From IMG/VR virus record IMGVR_UViG_3300043449_000032, positions 1-26,884 of that record: a DNA stretch of 26,884 nt; one strand, given 5' to 3'. This document shows, piece by piece, positions 1,888 to 25,499 of this stretch. Position numbers and translations under genes: made by a program. This DNA comes from a virus. The notes below the pieces were generated by a model. That model saw nothing but the letters and a program-made list of their open reading frames with translations. It did not search any database and had not been told where the DNA came from. The number at the start of each line of letters is the position of its first letter. Within the stretch, counting starts at the first letter, position 1.

Positions 1888-4374
1888 ATGGCAATAGACA
1901 AAGGTTTGTACGCAGCGCCTAAAGGCTTGGAAGAATTGACCGCGCCGGACATCGAAATTGAAATCGAAAACCCTGACGCAGTTGACATCTACATGGATGA
2001 TCTGGCTATCCACATGGAGCCAGATACCGACGCAGATTTCAACGCCAACCTTGCGGAATTCATGGATGATTCAGAACTGGAAGCCTTGGGTTCTGACCTG
2101 ATCGATGACTTCATGTCCGACCAGCGTGACCGCAAAGACTGGATTCAAACCTATGTCGAAGGCTTAAAGCTTCTGGGCTTGCGGTATGAAGAACGCACAG
2201 AACCTTGGCAAGGGGCCTGCGGGGTGTTCCACCCCATGCTGACAGAGTCAGTTGTCAGATTCCAATCAGAGGGCATCTCTGAAACCTTCCCTGCAATGGG
2301 GCCGGTCAAAACCAAAATCATCGGAAAAGAAACCCCAGAAACAGAAGAAGCCGCCGCCAGAGTTCAAGAAGACATGAACTACCAACTGACGGAAGTGATG
2401 ACGGAATACCGCCCAGAGCATGAAAAGCTCCTGTGGTCTTTGCCTATCACCGGCTCCGCCTTCAAGAAAGTCTATTACGACCCAAGCAAAGGCCGTCAGG
2501 TCGCCGTGTTCATCCCCGCAGAAGACTTGGTCGTCCCGTACGGAGCCTCCAATCTTGAAACCGCAGAGCGTGTGACACACATCATGCGCAAAACCAAGAA
2601 CGATGTCCTGAAACTGCAAAAGAGCGGGTTTTACTTGGATGTTGATCTGGGCGATCCGGGCTATGAACTGGACGACGTGGAGAAACAAAAGTCAGAGGAA
2701 GACGGCATGTCTGCCATCCAAGACAACCGCTTCCGTCTTTTGGAAATGCATGTTGAGCTTGACCTCAAAGGATACGAACACAAAGACAAGGACGGCGAGC
2801 CAACCGGCATTGCCTTGCCCTATGTTGTGACCATTGAAAAACAAACCGGTAAAGTTTTAGCCATAAGGAGAAATTGGTATGAAGGAGATGAACTGCACAT
2901 CAAGCGCCAGCATTTTGTCCACTACCAATACATCCCCGGTTTTGGCTTCTATGGCTATGGTCTTATCCACCTTATCGGAGGCTACGCCAAAAGCGCCACG
3001 ATGCTCATCCGGCAACTCGTGGATGCGGGAACACTTTCAAACCTACCCGGGGGCCTCAAGTCTCGCGGTCTTCGCATCAAGGGTGATGACACGCCAATCC
3101 AGCCGGGGGAATTCAGAGACGTAGATGTCCCGTCCGGCTCAATCCGCGACAACATTCTTCCGCTCCCGTACAAAGAACCCAGTCAGGTTCTGTTTGCCCT
3201 CTTCCAAAACATCGTCGAAGAAGGCCGCTCGTTTGCCAACGGCGGCGACATGAATGTCTCTGACATGTCTGCCCAAGCGCCTGTCGGCACAACCTTGGCA
3301 ATTTTGGAAAGAACCCTGAAGGTCATGGGCGCAGTCCAGTCCCGCATGCATTTCTCCATGAAGCAGGAATTCAAGCTGCTCAAGGTGATCATTGCCGACT
3401 ACGCGCCCGAAGATTATGACTACACCCCAGAAGAGGGTAGCCGCACCGCCCGCAAGTCAGATTACGACTCCACGGACGTGATTCCTGTCAGCGATCCAAA
3501 CGCCGCCACAATGGCGCAAAAGATCGTCCAGTACCAAGCAGTTCTCCAATTGGCCCAACAAGCCCCGCAGTTGTATGACATGCCCTTGTTGCACCGTCAG
3601 ATGATTGAAGTCTTGGGCATCAAGAACGCCGCCAAACTGGTCAAGACAGACGAAGACCAAGTCCCAACCGACCCAATTCAGGAAAACCAAGATGTCCTGA
3701 CCATGAAGCCGGTCAAGGCTTTTGTGCAGCAAAACCATGAGGCGCACATCAAAGTCCACATGATGGCGATGCAAGACCCCAAGATCGCCCAGATTGTTGC
3801 TCAAAACCCACAAGCCCCAATGATTCAAGCAGCCATGCTGGCTCACATCAATGAACACGTGGGCTTTCAATATCGCATGGAAATTGAAAAGCGCATGGGC
3901 ATCACCCTTCCGCAAGAAGAGCAAAACAAACAAGTCCCGCCGGAAATGGCAGATCACATTGCCATCATGGCAGCAGAAGCTGCCCAACAACTGTTTACAC
4001 AAAACAGCCAAGAGGCCCAACAGCAACAAGCCCAACAGCAAATGCAAGACCCGATCGTCCAGATGCAGATGCAAGAGCTTCAGTTGAAGATGGAAGACTT
4101 AAAACTAAAGCAACAAAAACAAGCGATGGACGCTGCCGCCAAGGCAGACCAGATTCGGGTGGAAGAAGCCCGCATCGCCGCGCAGAAAGAAATCGCAGCC
4201 ATGCAAGTTGGCGCAACGGCTGCTGCAAACAAGGATCGTTTAAACAAACAAATGGAGTTGGATGGCGCTCGACTTGGAGTCGATATTGCCAAACACCGCG
4301 CACAGTTAAGTGTGCAGCAAGCGCAACGGGCAGCGCAAAAACAGCCTAGCAAACCCAAAAAGGAGCGTGATTGA
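1888..4374 (+). CDS. Portal protein, P22-like
   Basis: This 828-aa protein follows terL directly. It is the likely dodecameric portal through which DNA enters and leaves the head. The N-terminal 90 residues are acidic. The body has aromatic-rich stretches typical of large P22-type portals, including a T-E-P-W-Q-G-A-C-G-V-F-H-P-M segment near 110-123 and a P-Y-V-V-T-I-E-K-Q-T-G-K region near residue 310. The last 150 residues are Q-, A- and K-rich (about 4000-4370) and look like a long coiled coil, comparable to the barrel extension of P22 portal. The ribosome site AAGGA precedes ATG 1888. Its stop overlaps the TTG start of the next gene. The role is known for the family; subtype assignment is inference. 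Confidence 0.9.
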   Translation: MAIDKGLYAAPKGLEELTAPDIEIEIENPDAVDIYMDDLAIHMEPDTDADFNANLAEFMDDSELEALGSDLIDDFMSDQRDRKDWIQTYVEGLKLLGLRYEERTEPWQGACGVFHPMLTESVVRFQSEGISETFPAMGPVKTKIIGKETPETEEAAARVQEDMNYQLTEVMTEYRPEHEKLLWSLPITGSAFKKVYYDPSKGRQVAVFIPAEDLVVPYGASNLETAERVTHIMRKTKNDVLKLQKSGFYLDVDLGDPGYELDDVEKQKSEEDGMSAIQDNRFRLLEMHVELDLKGYEHKDKDGEPTGIALPYVVTIEKQTGKVLAIRRNWYEGDELHIKRQHFVHYQYIPGFGFYGYGLIHLIGGYAKSATMLIRQLVDAGTLSNLPGGLKSRGLRIKGDDTPIQPGEFRDVDVPSGSIRDNILPLPYKEPSQVLFALFQNIVEEGRSFANGGDMNVSDMSAQAPVGTTLAILERTLKVMGAVQSRMHFSMKQEFKLLKVIIADYAPEDYDYTPEEGSRTARKSDYDSTDVIPVSDPNAATMAQKIVQYQAVLQLAQQAPQLYDMPLLHRQMIEVLGIKNAAKLVKTDEDQVPTDPIQENQDVLTMKPVKAFVQQNHEAHIKVHMMAMQDPKIAQIVAQNPQAPMIQAAMLAHINEHVGFQYRMEIEKRMGITLPQEEQNKQVPPEMADHIAIMAAEAAQQLFTQNSQEAQQQQAQQQMQDPIVQMQMQELQLKMEDLKLKQQKQAMDAAAKADQIRVEEARIAAQKEIAAMQVGATAAANKDRLNKQMELDGARLGVDIAKHRAQLSVQQAQRAAQKQPSKPKKERD

Positions 4375-17569: not shown

Positions 17570-17896
17570 ATGGCAACATACACAAACACCTCCTACGTCG
17601 CCAAAAATGTTGGCACATCTGCGTCCACACTGACCACGGTGGCTTCAGCCACAACTGCGGCGATTGCCAGTTTGGTGGTGGCAAACACAACCACATCCCC
17701 CATCACTTGCGACGTTTACATCACAAGGTCTGCGGTGGACTACTACTTGGTCAAGACAGCCACCGTGCCGGTTGGTGGTTCGCTGGAAGTGATTCAAGGC
17801 AACAGGGTGGTGTTGATTGCATCCGATGCACTGAAGGTTGTGTCCAGCGCAGCAACATCGGCAGACGTAGTTGTTTCAGTATTGTTGGCGGCATAA
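17570..17896 (+). CDS. Small beta-rich tail protein
   Basis: This 108-aa protein is Thr/Val/Ala-rich with alternating polar and apolar residues (C-D-V-Y-I-T-R-S-A-V-D-Y-Y-L-V-K, 44-59; P-V-G-G-S-L-E-V-I, 64-72). Its pattern recalls short tail proteins of this phage group that follow the module at 17137. It starts one base after the previous stop. It has no membrane helix despite the hydrophobic end. The role is probably structural. Confidence 0.62.
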   Translation: MATYTNTSYVAKNVGTSASTLTTVASATTAAIASLVVANTTTSPITCDVYITRSAVDYYLVKTATVPVGGSLEVIQGNRVVLIASDALKVVSSAATSADVVVSVLLAA

Positions 17897-17897
17897 C

Positions 17898-19025
17898 ATG
17901 GCATTCATAGGCAACACCAACACCACGCAGGCGTTTACACCGGCTGTAGATTTCTTCAGCGGAAATGCTTCGACCACGGCGTTTACGTTGTCTCGCCCAG
18001 TGGCTTCTGTGGCACAGGTGCAGGCTGTCATCTCAAACGTACCGCAAGCACCGGGTACTGCTTTCACTGTCAGCGGCAACACCATCACGTTCACCTCTGC
18101 CCCGCCCAGTGGCACGAACAACATCTATGTGTACTACACAAGCCCGATCACGCAAGTGATTGCACCAAGCCAAGGGACTGTAGGTACGACGCAGCTTCAG
18201 AATGGGCTTACGGTTAACTTTGCAGATGGGTCTGCCGCCGCTCCGTCTATTACAAACGATGGCGATACCAACACCGGCATTTTCTTCCCCGCCGCTGACA
18301 CCATTGCTTTTGCTGAAGGTGGTGTTGAGTCTATGCGTATCGACTCCAGCGGTAATGTTGGGATTGGTACGAGTTCGCCATTTGGTAGATTGCACGTTGA
18401 GTCTTCGGCAGGCGGTTTGCCTCTTTATGTCAACACTACAGCATCAGCGCAAAACGCACGCATTCGACTCAATAGTACGGACAATGCCTCATCTGTTTCG
18501 TACGTTCTTTCTTATTCGCACGCAAGTTTAAATAAGCAAGCATCAATACTTCTTGGCGGCACTGGAGCGATTGGTTTTTATACAAATCAAACCGCTGGTT
18601 CAGAACCAACCAGTGGAATTCTTGCCGCCTCTATTGACACAAGCGGCAACTTGCAATTCAACTCAGGCTACGGCTCTGTTGCTACTGCTTATGGTTGTCG
18701 TGCTTGGGTGAACTTTAATGGCACAGGTACTGTGGCGATCAGGGCATCAGGTAATGTATCGAGCATTACCGATAACGGTACTGGCGATTACACAGTGAAC
18801 TTCACGAATGCTATGCCCGATGCAAATTATGCTTACCATATTGGATCAAAACAAGATCAATCTGGTCTTGGCGATGCTGCATTTCCAACAAATGGGACTC
18901 CCACCGGCGCAACTGATGGGGCGGCGGGCATGACAACTACACGAATTAGATTACGTTTTACGAACTTTGATGCCACTCCAGCAACGAGAGATCAAGAAGT
19001 TGCTTGCGTTTCCATTTTCAGATAA
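17898..19025 (+). CDS. Tail fibre / receptor-binding protein A
   Basis: This 375-aa protein has an N-terminal F-I-G-N-T-N-T-T-Q-A-F-T-P-A module with V-S-G-N-T-I-T-F-T-S-A-P-P-S-G and Y-V-Y-Y-T (about 51-81), shared with the fibre at 20361. A middle part contains the fibre motif S-M-R-I-D-S-S-G-N-V-G-I-G-T, and the C-terminal tip starts C-R-A-W-V-N-F-N-G-T-G-T-V-A-I-R (18696 onwards). The tip recurs in the next gene. ATG 17898 follows the previous stop by one base; an in-frame ATG at 17871 inside the previous gene is rejected. This is likely a host-recognition fibre. Confidence 0.78.
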   Translation: MAFIGNTNTTQAFTPAVDFFSGNASTTAFTLSRPVASVAQVQAVISNVPQAPGTAFTVSGNTITFTSAPPSGTNNIYVYYTSPITQVIAPSQGTVGTTQLQNGLTVNFADGSAAAPSITNDGDTNTGIFFPAADTIAFAEGGVESMRIDSSGNVGIGTSSPFGRLHVESSAGGLPLYVNTTASAQNARIRLNSTDNASSVSYVLSYSHASLNKQASILLGGTGAIGFYTNQTAGSEPTSGILAASIDTSGNLQFNSGYGSVATAYGCRAWVNFNGTGTVAIRASGNVSSITDNGTGDYTVNFTNAMPDANYAYHIGSKQDQSGLGDAAFPTNGTPTGATDGAAGMTTTRIRLRFTNFDATPATRDQEVACVSIFR

Positions 19026-19034
19026 GGAGCAAAC

Positions 19035-19478
19035 ATGCCAATAAGCACAATCAGTCAAGCAGGTTTGGATGCTCCCATATCTTTAACCAGCCCAACGCTG
19101 ACAACACCAAACATCAACTCAGCGCAAATTGCTACTGTGTCTGGTACTGCACCACTTTATATGTGTCGTGCTTGGGTTAATTTTAATGGCACAGGCACTG
19201 TGGCAATTCGTGCAAGTGGAAATGTGACGAGCATTACTGATAATGGGACAGGCGATTATTATGTAAATTTTTCAACTTCTATGCCAGACACTAATTATGT
19301 AATTACAGGGTCTGCAAGGATTCAAGACTCAACAGCAGCAGATGGAGCAATGTTTGGGACAACTAGGCAGAATGTTGCAACAACATACCAAACAGGCAAA
19401 TGTAGAGTTAATGGGCTTTATCCTGTAAACGGTGATTTATATGATGCAGTTGTTATGTCTGTCGCCATCTTTCGTTAA
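19035..19478 (+). CDS. Short fibre-tip protein B
   Basis: This 147-aa protein has a short N-terminus (P-I-S-T-I-S-Q-A-G-L-D-A-P-I-S-L) that resembles the end of a fibre shaft, then the tip domain C-R-A-W-V-N-F-N-G-T-G-T-V-A-I-R (19164 onwards). The tip is nearly the same as the C-terminus of the 17898 protein for about 50 residues, then differs. It looks like a second, shorter receptor-binding tip. AAGGAG precedes ATG. The nucleotide match to the upstream copy is substantial, which suggests a duplication. Confidence 0.72.
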   Translation: MPISTISQAGLDAPISLTSPTLTTPNINSAQIATVSGTAPLYMCRAWVNFNGTGTVAIRASGNVTSITDNGTGDYYVNFSTSMPDTNYVITGSARIQDSTAADGAMFGTTRQNVATTYQTGKCRVNGLYPVNGDLYDAVVMSVAIFR

Positions 19479-19488
19479 AAGGACAACT

Positions 19489-19953
19489 ATGAACCAACGA
19501 CTGCATGAATTGTTTGCTTACGCCAACGGCAAGTTGTTGTGGCGCGTGAATCGTGGACGCGCTTGTGCTGGTGACGAAGCTGGCTCAATCATTCCAAATG
19601 GCAGACTGTATGTAGGTGTTGATGGTAAGAAGCACCTTGTTCATCGGGTGATTTGGTTTTTGCACCACGGCGAATGTCCGCAATTTCTTGACCACATTGA
19701 CGGCAACCCGCTGAACAATCGTATTGAAAATTTGCGCCCTGCGACAAAAGCGCAAAACGCCATGAACCGTAAGATTCGTTCTGATAATGTCACAGGCATG
19801 AAGGGCGTGTATCCACACGGGAAAAAATTTGCAGCATCCATTTGCATTGAAGGTAAGAATAACTACCTCGGTGTCTTTGAAACCTCAGAACTTGCCCAAG
19901 CCGCTTACATGGCGGTGGCAAAACAAACATTTAAGGAGTTTGCTCGTGTCTAA
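19489..19953 (+). CDS. HNH homing endonuclease with AP2-like C-terminus
   Basis: This 154-aa protein shows the HNH pattern: H52 (V-H-R-V-I-W), D68-H69-I-D71-G-N73 and N77-R-I-E-N81-L-R. An AP2-type DNA-binding part follows (T-G-M-K-G-V-Y-P, 102-109; Y-L-G-V-F-E-T-S-E-L-A-Q-A-A-Y, 126-140). ATG 19489 is chosen over an in-frame ATG at 19432 within the previous gene because AAAAGGA precedes it and the family starts here. Its last codons overlap the GTG of the next gene. It lies between a fibre gene and its small companion gene. Confidence 0.88.
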   Translation: MNQRLHELFAYANGKLLWRVNRGRACAGDEAGSIIPNGRLYVGVDGKKHLVHRVIWFLHHGECPQFLDHIDGNPLNNRIENLRPATKAQNAMNRKIRSDNVTGMKGVYPHGKKFAASICIEGKNNYLGVFETSELAQAAYMAVAKQTFKEFARV

Positions 19954-20364: not shown

Positions 20365-21413
20365 GCTATATCGGCAACACACCAATCTCAGTAGCCTTCC
20401 TGACTGACACGTTCAGCGGGACTGGAAGTCAGACTGCGTTCACCATGACGGTGGCTCCGGCAAACACGTCGTCTATTCTTGTGGCTGTGACTGGTGTGGT
20501 GCAAGACCCATCTACATATTCTGTATCCGGCACAACGCTGACATTCTCTGCTGCCCCGCCGAGCGGGACAAGCAACATCTCTGTTCGCTACCTTGGCATC
20601 CCAGCATCGGGCGTGACCACCACAGCCTACAGGACTGTGACCAACTTCACTGCGACCGCAGGACAGACATCGTTCTCAACCCCAAGCTATACCGTTGGTT
20701 ACATTGACGTGTACAGAAACGGTGTGCGACTTGTCTCAACAGATTTCACAGCCACCACAGGAACAACAGTTGTCTTGACCAACGCCTGCACCGCAGGCGA
20801 CACAGTGGTGACTGAGAGCTTCTACGTCTCCAGTGTGTTGAATGCCATTCCTGCAACAGCGGGCAGTGTGTCTGATAGTTACATCGTGGATGTCTCGGCT
20901 TCAAAGCTGACGGGGTCAAGAACAATTCCCAAGGGTACGATGCCAGCAGGGTCTGTGTTGCAAGTTGTCAGCGTAACCAAGACAGATACATTTTCCACAA
21001 CAAGCACATCTTTTACTGATGTCACAGGGTTATCTGCAAGTATTACACCAACCAGTTCATCAAGCAAAATTTTTGTTATAGTGAATGTTGCTTTAGGTGC
21101 TGGAAATATTCAAACTTCTGCTAGATTGATGCGGGATGCAACAGCAATTTCTATTGGTGATACCGCAAGTAATAGAGTTAGAGCAAGTTCTGTAAATGTG
21201 GGAAATACAACTGCAAATTCAACTTCAGGAATGCCATTAAGTACAGCAATAAATTATTTGGATTCTCCTGCATCTACATCATCAATTACTTACAAAATAC
21301 AAATTCAAGTAAATTCTGGAACTGGTTATGTAAATAGGGCTGATGACGATCAAGATGCAACATTTAGAGCAAGAACAGCATCAACAATCACAGTAATGGA
21401 GATTGCCGCATGA
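20361..21413 (+). CDS. Tail fibre protein C
   Basis: This 350-aa protein starts with M-S-Y-I-G-N-T-P-I-S-V-A-F-L-T-D-T-F and two similar beta modules: V-S-G-T-T-L-T-F-S-A-A-P-P-S-G (about 53-67), and Y-I-D-V-Y-R-N-G-V-R-L (about 114-124) as in many phage fibres. A shaft with A-S-K-L-T-G-S follows, then a distal domain from about residue 215 (nt 21000) whose codons are clearly AT-richer than the N-terminal part. That suggests that the tip was exchanged. Overlapping ATGA junctions link it to 20134 and 21410. Confidence 0.8.
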   Translation: MSYIGNTPISVAFLTDTFSGTGSQTAFTMTVAPANTSSILVAVTGVVQDPSTYSVSGTTLTFSAAPPSGTSNISVRYLGIPASGVTTTAYRTVTNFTATAGQTSFSTPSYTVGYIDVYRNGVRLVSTDFTATTGTTVVLTNACTAGDTVVTESFYVSSVLNAIPATAGSVSDSYIVDVSASKLTGSRTIPKGTMPAGSVLQVVSVTKTDTFSTTSTSFTDVTGLSASITPTSSSSKIFVIVNVALGAGNIQTSARLMRDATAISIGDTASNRVRASSVNVGNTTANSTSGMPLSTAINYLDSPASTSSITYKIQIQVNSGTGYVNRADDDQDATFRARTASTITVMEIAA

Positions 21414-21676
21414 ATCACAATGCAATATATGCTCTTTACCCGCAAGTTGTCTCTGTTGATGACGCTGATGGCGCAAGGGATGCTCAAGGCAATCAAGTTG
21501 AAATTGACATGGATGCAGTTAATGCTTGGGTTGACCCAAACGCATACAAGTACAAACGTGCTGCGGAGTACCCATCAATTCCTGACCAATTTGACTTGCT
21601 GTATCACGGCGGGCTTGATGCGTGGAAGGCTGCAATCCAAACAGTCAAAGACAAATACCCCAAGGCAACACCATGA
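21410..21676 (+). CDS. Small fibre-associated protein, possible assembly chaperone
   Basis: This 88-aa protein contains V-S-V-D-D-A-D-G-A-R-D-A-Q-G (14-27), W-V-D-P-N-A-Y-K-Y-K-R-A-A-E-Y-P-S (40-56) and A-I-Q-T-V-K-D-K-Y-P-K (75-85). The Y-P-S-I-x-D-Q-x-D-x-L-Y-H-G-G type block occurs in short proteins encoded after tail fibres in many phages, sometimes classed with tail assembly chaperones. It is coupled to the fibre before it and to the endonuclease after it by ATGA overlaps. Confidence 0.68.
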   Translation: MNHNAIYALYPQVVSVDDADGARDAQGNQVEIDMDAVNAWVDPNAYKYKRAAEYPSIPDQFDLLYHGGLDAWKAAIQTVKDKYPKATP

Positions 21677-22368
21677 CCAACGCAGTAATCATTGCTCAAC
21701 AAGGCTCAAACAACACCACATTGTTTAAGCCAACCGTTCTTTTGGTGATGACTCATAATGTCACTGGCAAAAAATACTTTTGCAAAACAACCGTACTCAA
21801 AAGATTGAGTTGGTACAAAGGCAGTGGAGTCCATTGGAGACGTCATTTAGCAAAGTATGGATCAGATATAACTGTCGATGTTCTCGGTCTATATTTTAAT
21901 AAAAATTATTGCGTTAATTCTGCATTGGAATTTTCAAAAACAAACAATATTGTTGAGTCTGATGAATGGCTCAATCATGTGGCTGAAGACGGCTTAACTG
22001 GTTGGCCTTGCGGTAAAGAAAACTATGCTTTTGGCAAAGTTAATCAATACAAAGATAAAAAACGTCCTGACATATCAGTCAGATTCACAGGCTCCAACAA
22101 CCCCATGTGGGGTAAACCAAGTCCCATGCGAGGCATAGCCAAACCAAAGGGTAAAGACAGCCCTTTGTACGGCAGAAAACGCCCTGAAGGCGGCGGGAAA
22201 AAGCCCCATTCAGTCATCAAAATAGATGCTGACGGCGTAGAAACAAGATACGATTCTGTGTCTGATGCGGCAAGAGTTTTGGGTGTTTCACGTTCTTGCA
22301 TACATACCGTTTGCACTGGTAAAAACAAAACTGGTGCTGGTTATAAATGGAGATACGCAAATGACTAA
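21673..22368 (+). CDS. Homing-endonuclease-like protein with NUMOD domains and a fibre-like N-terminus
   Basis: This is a 231-aa protein. Residues 1-18 (M-T-N-A-V-I-I-A-Q-Q-G-S-N-N) closely match the start of the following fibre protein (M-T-N-A-V-N-V-A-Q-S-G-S-N-N). From residue 20 comes a GIY-YIG-like region (T-G-K-K-Y-F-C-K-T-T, 31-40; Y-K-G-S-G-V-H-W-R-R-H, 48-58). NUMOD3-like repeats follow (N-N-P-M-W-G-K-P, 142-149; S-P-L-Y-G-R, 163-168), then a NUMOD1-like end (D-S-V-S-D-A-A-R-V-L-G-V-S, 194-206). NUMOD modules are DNA-binding parts of homing endonucleases. It has ATGA and ATGACTAA overlaps with its neighbours. The catalytic family is less certain than the NUMOD part. Confidence 0.82.
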   Translation: MTNAVIIAQQGSNNTTLFKPTVLLVMTHNVTGKKYFCKTTVLKRLSWYKGSGVHWRRHLAKYGSDITVDVLGLYFNKNYCVNSALEFSKTNNIVESDEWLNHVAEDGLTGWPCGKENYAFGKVNQYKDKKRPDISVRFTGSNNPMWGKPSPMRGIAKPKGKDSPLYGRKRPEGGGKKPHSVIKIDADGVETRYDSVSDAARVLGVSRSCIHTVCTGKNKTGAGYKWRYAND

Positions 22369-23437
22369 TGCTGTTAACGTTGCCCAGTCAGGGTCTAATA
22401 ATGTAAGTTTTAGAAACCGCATCATCAATGGTGCGATGGTGATTGACCAAAGAAATGCGGGGGCGAGTGTTACGCCATCAAACCAAGCATACACACTTGA
22501 TAGGTGGACTGCTTATCAAAATCAGGCATCTAAATATTCTGTACAACAAAATGCAGGATCAGTCACTCCTCCAGCAGGGTTTAGTAACTATCTTGGTGTT
22601 ACATCACTATCAGCATATTCAGTGCTTACAGGAGACTACAACGCATTAATTCAAGCAATTGAGGGGTTCAATGGTGCTGACTTGGCGTTTGGCACTGCAT
22701 CTGCTTCTACTATAACCATATCATTTTGGGTTCGTTCTTCTTTGACAGGAACATTCGGTGCGGCAATTAAAAATAATGCTGGAGATAGGTCTTATCCATT
22801 TACATATACCATTAGTGCCGCAAACACTTGGGAGCAAAAGTCAGTCACTATTCCGGGAGATACTTCTGGAACATGGCTAACCAATAATAGTCGCTGGGCA
22901 TATGTTCAATTCGGACTTGGTGTAGGCGCAACTTACAGCGCAGCCGCCGGAGCATGGACAACAACAAACTGTATTTCCGCAACAGGCGCAACATCAGTAG
23001 TCGGCACAAATGGCGCAACTTTCTACATCACAGGTGTCCAGCTTGAAGCAGGGTCTACTGCATCCCCGTTTGAGTATCGCTCGTATGGTACTGAGTTGGC
23101 TTTGTGTCAGAGGTATTTTTATAATCTTGTCGCAGCAGCAGGATCGGCAGCAAGCACAACAAAAGTAGAACTTTTCTACCAACACCCAGTCCCTATGCGA
23201 GCAGCTCCAACATTGAATGTTGTAGGTTTAATAAGAGTTGAAGATGTTGCTGTTGGTAGTTATTCACAAAGTTCAGCAACTTCTACTTTAGAGCAAGCAA
23301 ATTATTTAAGTATGAAAACTGGTTTTGGGAATTTGAGTGGGCTTACTGTTGCAAGACCTTATTTTATTGCTACTTTAGCAGCAAGCATAACAGCATCACC
23401 ACCAACTAATTTGTGCCAAGTATCTGCGGAGTTATAA
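22361..23437 (+). CDS. Tail fibre / receptor-binding protein D
   Basis: This 358-aa protein starts at ATG 22361 (M-T-N-A-V-N-V-A-Q-S-G-S-N-N); an in-frame start at 22265 lies inside the endonuclease and is rejected. The body has F-R-N-R-I-I-N-G-A-M-V-I-D-Q-R-N-A (16-32) and Y-T-L-D-R-W-T (near 45-51). It then has a carbohydrate-binding-like beta domain (T-I-S-F-W-V-R-S-S-L-T-G-T-F) and I-T-G-V-Q-L-E-A-G-S-T-A-S-P-F-E-Y-R-S (about 223-241), hallmarks of a widespread phage tip family. The final 110 residues form a variable C-terminus with AT-rich codons. It is likely a receptor-binding protein. Confidence 0.82.
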   Translation: MTNAVNVAQSGSNNVSFRNRIINGAMVIDQRNAGASVTPSNQAYTLDRWTAYQNQASKYSVQQNAGSVTPPAGFSNYLGVTSLSAYSVLTGDYNALIQAIEGFNGADLAFGTASASTITISFWVRSSLTGTFGAAIKNNAGDRSYPFTYTISAANTWEQKSVTIPGDTSGTWLTNNSRWAYVQFGLGVGATYSAAAGAWTTTNCISATGATSVVGTNGATFYITGVQLEAGSTASPFEYRSYGTELALCQRYFYNLVAAAGSAASTTKVELFYQHPVPMRAAPTLNVVGLIRVEDVAVGSYSQSSATSTLEQANYLSMKTGFGNLSGLTVARPYFIATLAASITASPPTNLCQVSAEL

Positions 23438-23820: not shown

Positions 23821-24396
23821 ATGACGGGATTTGTTTTAGCAGGAGACACATCAGGGCAAATTGCAGTAAACGCCCCTGCTGTCGCAGGATCAAACACGCT
23901 GACACTTCAAGCCGCCACTGCGACAAATGCTGTCAATACATTGGCAACAGCGGTTGCGTCTACATCTGGCACTTCAATTGAATTCACAAGTTTGCCAAGC
24001 TGGATTAAAAAAATCACTGTGATGTTTCAGGGAGTAAGCACTAATGGAAGCTCAAATCTTCAATGCCAAATTGGCGCTGGAAGCGTGACAAGTTCTGGTT
24101 ATTTGAGTAGTGCTGCATATATTTCTGGTGGTACTGCGGCGGCTTTTACAACTGGTTTTGGAATTGCTAATGCGATTGGTTCGGGAACTATTCTTCATGG
24201 CTCATTTACTATTTCTCTTTTAGGATCAAATGCTTGGGCGGCATCTGGAACTATGGCTTCCTCAAATGCGGCAAATGTATGGTCTATGGCGGGTTCAATT
24301 TCACTTTCTGGAACTCTTGATCGTGTCCGCATCACAACAGTCAACGGCACAGACACATTCGATGCTGGCACTATCAACATTCTGTACGAAGGATAA
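23821..24396 (+). CDS. Fibre-tip paralogue 1
   Basis: This 191-aa protein is the first of a set of three. A variable N-terminus (1-42) with A-G-D-T-S-G-Q-I-A-V-N-A-P-A is followed by the shared domain from T-A-V-A-S-T-S-G-T-S (23947 on) to D-R-V-R-I-T-T-V-N-G-T-D-T-F-D-A-G then I-N-I-L-Y-E-G at the end. Between the conserved edges the middle is divergent and Ser/Gly/Ala-rich. AAGGA precedes ATG 23821. A receptor-binding or decoration role on the fibre is inferred. Confidence 0.72.
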   Translation: MTGFVLAGDTSGQIAVNAPAVAGSNTLTLQAATATNAVNTLATAVASTSGTSIEFTSLPSWIKKITVMFQGVSTNGSSNLQCQIGAGSVTSSGYLSSAAYISGGTAAAFTTGFGIANAIGSGTILHGSFTISLLGSNAWAASGTMASSNAANVWSMAGSISLSGTLDRVRITTVNGTDTFDAGTINILYEG

Positions 24397-24398
24397 TC

Positions 24399-24983
24399 AT
24401 GTCAATACTTGTTTTAACTTCTGACACACTTATCGGTACGCCAGCGACAGGCAACATCGAATACAACGGTCAATTCTTTGGCACTGACAGCAATGCGTCA
24501 CGGGCGCAGATGCAGAGGATTACTCAGGGTACTGCTGTTGCATCTACCAGCGGAACATCAATTGATTTCACAGGGTTGCCAGCGTGGGTGAAGCGGATAA
24601 CAGTAATCCTTAGTGGTGTAAGCACAAGCGGAACAAGTAATCTAGTTTGTCGTATAGGAGATGGTTCTATATCGTCTTCAGGCTATGCTAGTGGGGCAAC
24701 CAGAATTGGAACATCTGGCGCAGTGGCAACATCTACTGCTGGGTACTTGCTCACTGGAGACAATGGTTCTGCAAGCATTCATCATGGTAGCGTTTTAATT
24801 ACAAATATATCAAGTAATTCTTGGACAACATTTGGTGTGTTAAGTCGATCTGATGATGGCTTTTCAAATATTAGCGGAGGGTCAAAAACATTATCCGCAA
24901 CACTCGACCGAGTACGCATCACCACTGTAAATGGAACTGACACCTTTGACGCTGGTTCAATCAACATTTTGTACGAGGGCTAA
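24399..24983 (+). CDS. Fibre-tip paralogue 2
   Basis: This 194-aa protein starts two bases after the previous stop. Its N-terminus (1-44: M-S-I-L-V-L-T-S-D-T-L-I-G-T-P-A then F-F-G-T-D) is unlike paralogue 1 and resembles a shaft-to-tip segment. From T-A-V-A-S-T-S-G-T-S (24531) to L-Y-E-G it carries the same domain with a different middle (I-G-D-G-S-I-S-S-S-G-Y). Confidence 0.72.
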   Translation: MSILVLTSDTLIGTPATGNIEYNGQFFGTDSNASRAQMQRITQGTAVASTSGTSIDFTGLPAWVKRITVILSGVSTSGTSNLVCRIGDGSISSSGYASGATRIGTSGAVATSTAGYLLTGDNGSASIHHGSVLITNISSNSWTTFGVLSRSDDGFSNISGGSKTLSATLDRVRITTVNGTDTFDAGSINILYEG

Positions 24984-24986
24984 ATC

Positions 24987-25499
24987 ATGGCACTAACTTT
25001 GGATGGATCAGCAAGCGTCACGATCAACTCAGGTGCGGTACTGGGGATTACCTCTGGCACTGCTGTTGCCTCTACATCGGGTACAAGCATTGACTTCACT
25101 GGTATACCGTCATGGGTAAAGCGAATCACGGTAATGTTTAATGGAGTTTCGACAAACGGTACTTCTAATATTCTTATCCAATCTGGTAGCGGAAGCATTG
25201 ACTCAACAGGATATGTTTCTCAAGCTGGAAACCGAGGTGCTGAAGCAAGCTCAACGGCTGGATTTTTAGTAACGAACTCTACTGCTGCCGCCTCATTAAT
25301 AGGTGGCTCAGTAGTTTTAACAACTTTAGGGTCTAATATTTGGGTTGCCGCAGGAACACTTAACGGTGCTAACTCTGTTCCAAACATTTGCGCTGGTTAC
25401 AAAACATTTTCAGGAACTATTGATCGTGTTCGTATAACCACAGTCGGAGGAACAGAAACCTTTGACGCTGGCTCAATCAACATTCTTTATGAAGGCTAA
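24987..25499 (+). CDS. Fibre-tip paralogue 3
   Basis: This 170-aa protein has the shortest N-terminus (1-24, M-A-L-T-L-D-G-S-A-S-V-T-I-N-S-G), then the shared domain from 25059 to the C-terminus. Its middle block differs again (I-Q-S-G-S-G-S-I-D-S-T-G-Y). The N-terminus M-A-L-T-L-D-G is common in phage fibre proteins. Confidence 0.72.
   Translation: MALTLDGSASVTINSGAVLGITSGTAVASTSGTSIDFTGIPSWVKRITVMFNGVSTNGTSNILIQSGSGSIDSTGYVSQAGNRGAEASSTAGFLVTNSTAAASLIGGSVVLTTLGSNIWVAAGTLNGANSVPNICAGYKTFSGTIDRVRITTVGGTETFDAGSINILYEG

Follow-up and report, generated by a model that had tools for sequence, protein, structure and literature searches.

The window analysed here, that is, the whole stretch of 26,884 nucleotides of the IMG/VR virus record IMGVR_UViG_3300043449_000032, carries on its + strand three overlapping genes: a gene of unknown function (21410-21676; phrog_9114), an open reading frame of 231 aa encoding a homing endonuclease (21673-22368) and a tail-fibre gene of 358 aa (22361-23437; phrog_4492 tail fiber, E 1e-54). 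The stop codon of the first gene overlaps the ATG of the second as ATGA, and the endonuclease stop (22368) overlaps the fibre ATG (22361) by 8 nt; the endonuclease frame opens with MTNAVIIAQQGSNN and the fibre frame with MTNAVNVAQSGSNN, the first 14 residues of each being alike. The segment 21673-21722 (+; MTNAVIIAQQGSNNTT..) is a relic of the resident fibre start, which now forms the N-terminus of the endonuclease. It is followed by an insert (21723-22420, +; defined relative to an empty site), comprising the endonuclease body, an embedded ribosome-binding site (Shine-Dalgarno GGAG, 22349-22352, +, within the last endonuclease codons) and a replacement fibre start (MTNAVNVAQSGSNNVSFR, 22361-22414, +), synonymously diverged from the relic. 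The fibre body, from the N codon at 22415 onwards (+; NRIINGAMVIDQRNAG..), is resident sequence.

Downstream of the relic, the endonuclease is composed of a GIY-YIG domain (aa 19-109), a NUMOD3-like linker and an I-HmuI/I-TevI-like NUMOD/HTH region (aa 175-231); the presence of both the GIY-YIG catalytic fold and the NUMOD/HTH DNA-binding region is predicted, on the basis of a structural model and of domain and family matches. In particular, Pfam returned a match to PF22083 NUMOD above its cutoff (E 9e-9) and PHROGs a match to phrog_314 homing endonuclease (E 8e-8); no GIY-YIG match was obtained in the Pfam search of the 231-aa protein. In the predicted structure (mean pLDDT 83), residues 19-109 align with the catalytic domain of I-TevI (1mk0; Z 9.3, 88 residues aligned, rmsd 2.8, VIA-align), well above unrelated rows, while residues 175-231 align with I-HmuI (Z 9.7) and with the DNA-binding domain of I-TevI (Z 6.7). 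As regards the catalytic Tyr/Arg/Glu of I-TevI-like enzymes, a Tyr and a Glu column are invariant across 39 endonuclease homologues, single residues not having been mapped onto I-TevI; moreover, dN/dS of endonuclease pairs ranges from 0.06 to 0.30, which shows that the protein is under purifying selection. The fixed site is found both occupied and empty, as for an I-TevI-like homing endonuclease; cutting of the empty allele, sparing of the occupied one and active homing are inferred, no cleavage or homing having been observed. Since the isolated phages searched yielded only distant relatives of the endonuclease (at best 39% identity over half the length, or 27% over 89%) and the genome contigs searched a single weak one, the evidence rests on IMG/VR contigs.

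Other genes of the window, all on the + strand, deserve mention in their own right. A second endonuclease-like gene (19492-19953), apparently HNH with an AP2-like tail as judged from sequence only, sits between a fibre ORF (19035-19478) and an ORF starting near 19946, and similar DNA is present in two other contigs (L194, 98%; L212, 88%). The ORFs 17871-19025 and 19035-19478 bear near their ends a similar CRAWVNFNGTGTVAIRASGNV.. domain (phrog_11355), probably a duplicated fibre C-terminal domain. Three genes in a row at 23821-25499 have the look of tandem paralogues; at least two of them end in ..DAGxINILYEG, and the second and the third match phrog_29482.

The 5' copy is the resident fibre start

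Scanning viral contigs for the sequence pattern of such starts retrieved empty relatives, namely fibres without an endonuclease between start and body. In five (L131, L133, L137, L138 and L145) there is a single start, whose DNA resembles the copy at 21673 and not that at 22361. The first copy is 98% identical to the fibre start of an uninserted relative over 48 nt, with 14/14 shared codons (98% nucleotide identity holds for the empty starts of L145/L006), while the best empty match of the second copy (22361 onwards) reaches only 76%. The most informative relative is L145, in which the upstream gene has a homologous counterpart that shares its 3' end and its ATGA overlap and lies directly 5' of an uninterrupted fibre whose start runs straight into CGCAATAGGATCATCAATGG (RNRIING). 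When the window is aligned with this contig by blastn, homology on the left stops at 21722 and is taken up again on the right at 22421; the insert is therefore placed at 21723-22420, with a length of 698 bp. The insertion and its boundaries are thus shown, and so are the resident origin of the 5' copy and the divergence of the 3' copy.

The two starts of the window have in common 10 residues other than Met/Trp over their first 17 codons, and none of the 10 is written with the same codon (NG86 pS = 1.0); a chance likeness is excluded, because the DNA of the first copy is 98% identical to the start of an uninserted relative. The initial annotation of the window, which had pointed out that the endonuclease and the fibre begin alike with differing DNA, is confirmed on this point; its headline claim, that the endonuclease carries the diverged copy, is reversed, since the endonuclease holds the original start and the fibre the diverged one. 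The comparison that it suggested, with relatives lacking the endonuclease, gave the match to 21673 described above, and the outcome that it named as refuting, both starts occurring as separate fibre genes in uninserted relatives, was not seen.

Recurrence and recoding at other viral loci

Recurrent loci were collected by a search with the endonuclease alone, followed by parsing of the loci; it should be borne in mind that the loci used for the statistics were gathered with the queries of this analysis, come from IMG/VR and are partly related to one another. The arrangement recurs: at about 30 related viral loci the endonuclease occupies the same point, just 5' of the conserved (K/R)NRIING codons, in fibres of about eight N-terminal types (MTNAV.., MALTQ.., MSVxxxGTxGxTFND.., MTLAISGTTG.., MSTxKxNxxxDASGG..LYGVA.., ..TINSMTP.., MxYGxxxAD.. 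and MGKA..). Upstream, a truncated start of the local type is either fused in frame to the endonuclease, as in the window and in L271-L276, L278, L283, L285 and L286, or forms a mini-ORF of 20-30 codons that is coupled to the endonuclease, its stop overlapping the endonuclease start or lying right next to it (L279-L281, L284, L288, L289, L292, L295-L297, L299, L300, L302-L304 and L312); at a few occupied loci (L282, L290, L294, L308 and L311) the relic has been lost. At most loci the relic ends about 1-5 codons from NRIING, with no downstream fibre remnant after it, and at many of them a stop codon follows it at once; downstream, the fibre body is preceded by another start, of broadly the same protein type. 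Free-standing relatives of the endonuclease found elsewhere begin with M-(x)-PTWLYIKQH, which suggests that the fibre-borne forms exchanged their own start for that of the host gene.

GGAG, GAGG or AGGAG is found within 20 nt 5' of the replacement start at 37/37 homologous loci examined, the Shine-Dalgarno sequence lying in the last codons of the endonuclease (often ..KE, AAGGAG). At all 37 a fibre ORF opens from this start; where neither the contig nor the locus ends too early, the ORF has a length of about 320-377 aa. That the insert carries a functional substitute for the part of the target that it cuts off is inferred from sequence alone.

Codon identity at shared residues was computed for 27 curated loci, using pairs with at least 8 shared residues. 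Empty alleles among themselves show an identity of 0.546 and relics versus empties 0.518, while replacement starts versus empties reach 0.297, codon usage alone predicting 0.319; consistently, the relic is nearer than the replacement to an empty allele in 24/27 loci (mean 84% vs 66% nt; Wilcoxon p 3e-7). Relics therefore belong to the pool of empty alleles, and replacement starts are synonymously saturated; in L283 the two copies have 22 residues other than Met/Trp in common and only 4 identical codons. The identity between replacement and relic (0.303 vs 0.316 by chance) is at chance and not clearly below it; since the divergence is that expected from codon usage, saturation is shown, whereas selection for dissimilarity is not demonstrated. 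Pairing each 5' start with its own or with a swapped 3' start made no difference (0.29 vs 0.31), and the two pools, though different, are not specially so within one locus.

The carried segment has a sharp right end. From the N codon onwards occupied alleles follow the codon choice of empty alleles (0.65 vs 0.59 and 0.51 vs 0.46 at the first two codons, across 27 loci), which places the end of the segment at the junction. Immediately before this N, the residue is K/R in 151/154 empty alleles, compared to 25/37 occupied ones (Fisher p 1.6e-7); the remaining 12/37 occupied alleles have V, Y or T there, and the presumed target is therefore altered on its left side.

Between the window and L271 the endonuclease is identical at 524/642 nt (82%) and the replacement start at 44/51 (86%), compared with only 29/48 (60%) for the relic, and the two are alignable at the DNA level from the endonuclease body onwards. 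Over the whole data set, a Mantel test gave the replacement start and the relic equal correlations with the endonuclease (r 0.51 vs 0.51, DNA), and different replacement starts accompany some closely similar endonucleases (L300/L312); in view of the equal correlations, long-term co-inheritance is not claimed, and strict co-inheritance is shown for the closest pairs only. At least one fibre start that resembles the replacement kind (TQNTSAFTGGFAMRNRIING) lacks an endonuclease upstream, in L149 near position 4333, a point against the explanation preferred below; it might be a scar left by loss of an endonuclease or a natural source of such starts.

A related arrangement was observed at the other end of a different gene. 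In six viral contigs (L317, L321, L324, L325, L328 and L331) related endonucleases lie at the 3' end of a gene ending in ..YLAWLAEGNxPLPADE*; they end like the native tail of that gene (PADEVTP*, PADEVKA*), and the gene itself has a slightly different substitute tail. This may be a 3'-end mirror of the window, and as such a hint at a general strategy.

Proposed mechanism and rival explanations

The most likely explanation, to which we assign a probability of roughly 0.82, is that of a homing endonuclease restoring the gene that it breaks by means of a diverged replacement start, with cutting, immunity and active homing remaining inferences. According to this model, a free-standing gene for an I-TevI-like endonuclease has inserted at a fixed point of the fibre gene, where the variable N-terminal codons give way to the conserved (K/R)NRIINGAMVIDQRNAG. 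The cut-off resident start remains upstream, as the endonuclease's own start or as a coupled mini-ORF, and, being ATGA-coupled to the upstream gene, now drives the endonuclease; the insert brings a ribosome-binding site and a replacement start of the same type in other codons, so that the downstream body would still be translated as a whole fibre. The enzyme would cut empty fibre genes near the junction, and repair from the occupied allele would copy endonuclease and replacement start together. The right repair arm would be provided by the highly conserved NRIING DNA and the left one, within an N-terminal type, by the relic; entry into a new type would call for illegitimate one-sided joining, and one-sided events with microhomology junctions are known from T4 homing (PMC2988022). 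A replacement identical to the target would permit repair that skips the endonuclease, cutting of the occupied allele and deletion of the insert via direct repeats; it is the divergence of the replacement start that, by inference, would avoid the repair short cut, the re-cutting and the direct-repeat loss.

A bolder reading, which in our opinion could go either way, sees in these loci a natural family of home-and-rescue drives, in which the recoded start is kept by selection because it is both uncuttable and non-homologous to the target, forcing the endonuclease to be copied; related enzymes would do likewise at the 3' ends of another gene (the '..PADE' tails of L317-L331), and rescue of a cut-off gene end would be a general strategy of this endonuclease clade.

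Of the competing explanations, the one that remains possible is that the replacement start is an ordinary natural allele of another phage, co-converted with the endonuclease, and that its codon differences are neutral, with no role in immunity or homing. In its favour, a fibre with no endonuclease nearby (L140) has 8/13 codons in common with the replacement start, the divergence is at and not beyond the expectation from codon usage, and similar endonucleases may carry different replacement starts; against it, the replacement set is far from the empty pool (0.297 vs 0.546) in spite of near-full protein identity at some loci, such as L283, the divergence ends exactly at the junction, and a half-site residue is altered. 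It is very unlikely that the locus derives from tandem fibre genes with like starts, the endonuclease having replaced the body of the first and fused with its remnant. This would be in keeping with the presence of several fibre genes in these phages and with the single protein type of the two starts; however, the empty L145 has one start, with flanking homology that stops and resumes at the insert, no fibre remnant follows the relics, and the same break would be needed at about 30 loci.

The reversed origin, with the 5' copy arriving together with the endonuclease and the 3' copy resident, can draw on the in-frame position of the 5' copy in the window, but it is all but ruled out: the 5' copy is 98% identical to empty starts, homology in the left flank extends as far as this copy, no such match exists for the 3' copy, and many loci have the 5' copy as a mini-ORF of its own. 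Both this reading and the tandem-fibre fusion were rejected on the empty-site alignment with L145. Virtually excluded, too, is a self-splicing intron or an intein joining the 5' copy to NRIING, the second start being incidental. An insert in coding sequence, at a conserved site and with an endonuclease aboard, would suit such an element; yet the insert is nearly filled by the endonuclease ORF, at every locus examined the second start has a Shine-Dalgarno sequence and leads into an open fibre ORF, and a stop follows the relic at many loci. The self-splicing intron was rejected for want of any Rfam intron match around the endonuclease: a search of 21300-22800 gave no intron family at E up to 1, the best hits being sub-threshold snoRNA/sRNA.

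With respect to the initial annotation, its proposal of an insertion into a fibre gene with take-over of the start and a recoded copy keeping the fibre intact has thus largely held, given the boundaries against L145 and the about 30 other loci. Its suggestion that the recoded copy protects the site from cutting has circumstantial support only (saturation up to the junction; K/R in 151/154 vs 25/37), and its alternative, in which the endonuclease would be fused with what is left of a second fibre gene, is unsupported.

Comparison with known systems

Endonucleases residing inside needed genes usually rely on introns, inteins or tolerance of the protein to being split; the phage clade described here avoids harm via a spare gene start at about 30 loci. 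Among phage systems, the free-standing GIY-YIG enzymes SegA-G of T4 are likewise promoter-less cassettes in polycistronic transcripts, with overlapping stops and starts and a GIY-YIG fold, and double-strand-break repair and co-conversion are expected in both cases (PMC2988022); the T4 Seg genes, however, lie between genes and cut a neighbour, whereas the phage-fibre endonucleases lie inside the target gene, with a substitute for the cut-off part. Aeh1 mobE in nrdA and T4 mobA in gene 60 are free-standing endonucleases within a phage gene as well (PMC2988022), but there the gene is split into two polypeptides that reassemble, whereas the fibre is kept whole by the replacement start; the T4 Seg/Mob endonucleases and the Aeh1/T4 split genes have been described without a rescue segment (PMC2988022). 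No report of the same arrangement in phages was found in the open-access literature searched, an absence which is no proof of novelty.

The arrangement explains the fibre-like N-termini of annotated endonucleases in these phages, as well as the saturated codons of fibre starts with near-identical proteins; it also makes it possible to ask, in a simple and testable system, whether a diverged coding sequence at a homing site is selected against re-cutting and repair short cuts. A parallel is offered by the engineered home-and-rescue (HomeR) drive, in which a homing nuclease is directed at a gene that is needed, with a functional substitute travelling on the element (PMC7968924); HomeR is synthetic, CRISPR-based and built in insects, with cutting and rescue demonstrated, whereas in the phage case, which would be its natural counterpart, both are only inferred.

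A close likeness is to the gene hybrids created by mobile ORFs in fungal mitochondria, known from Allomyces atp6, from Glomus atp6, atp9, cox2 and nad3, from Rhizopus atp9 (PMC3630166) and from Phlebia cox2 (PMC4019555). In these, too, an endonuclease ORF lies in a gene and brings along a copy of that gene's end which has diverged, for the most part synonymously (about 64% nt and 91% aa for the duplicated ends of Glomus atp6), and the displaced native end matches uninserted relatives while the carried end does not, as found here in 24/27 loci (p 3e-7). The fungal hybrids replace the C-terminus, occur in organelles, mostly involve LAGLIDADG enzymes and number one or few cases per genome; in the phages, by contrast, it is the N-terminus of tail fibres that is replaced, by a GIY-YIG enzyme using the displaced start, at about 30 loci. 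The phage arrangement can thus be described as a 5'-end mirror of the fungal mitochondrial gene hybrids, with take-over of the start and many recurrences.
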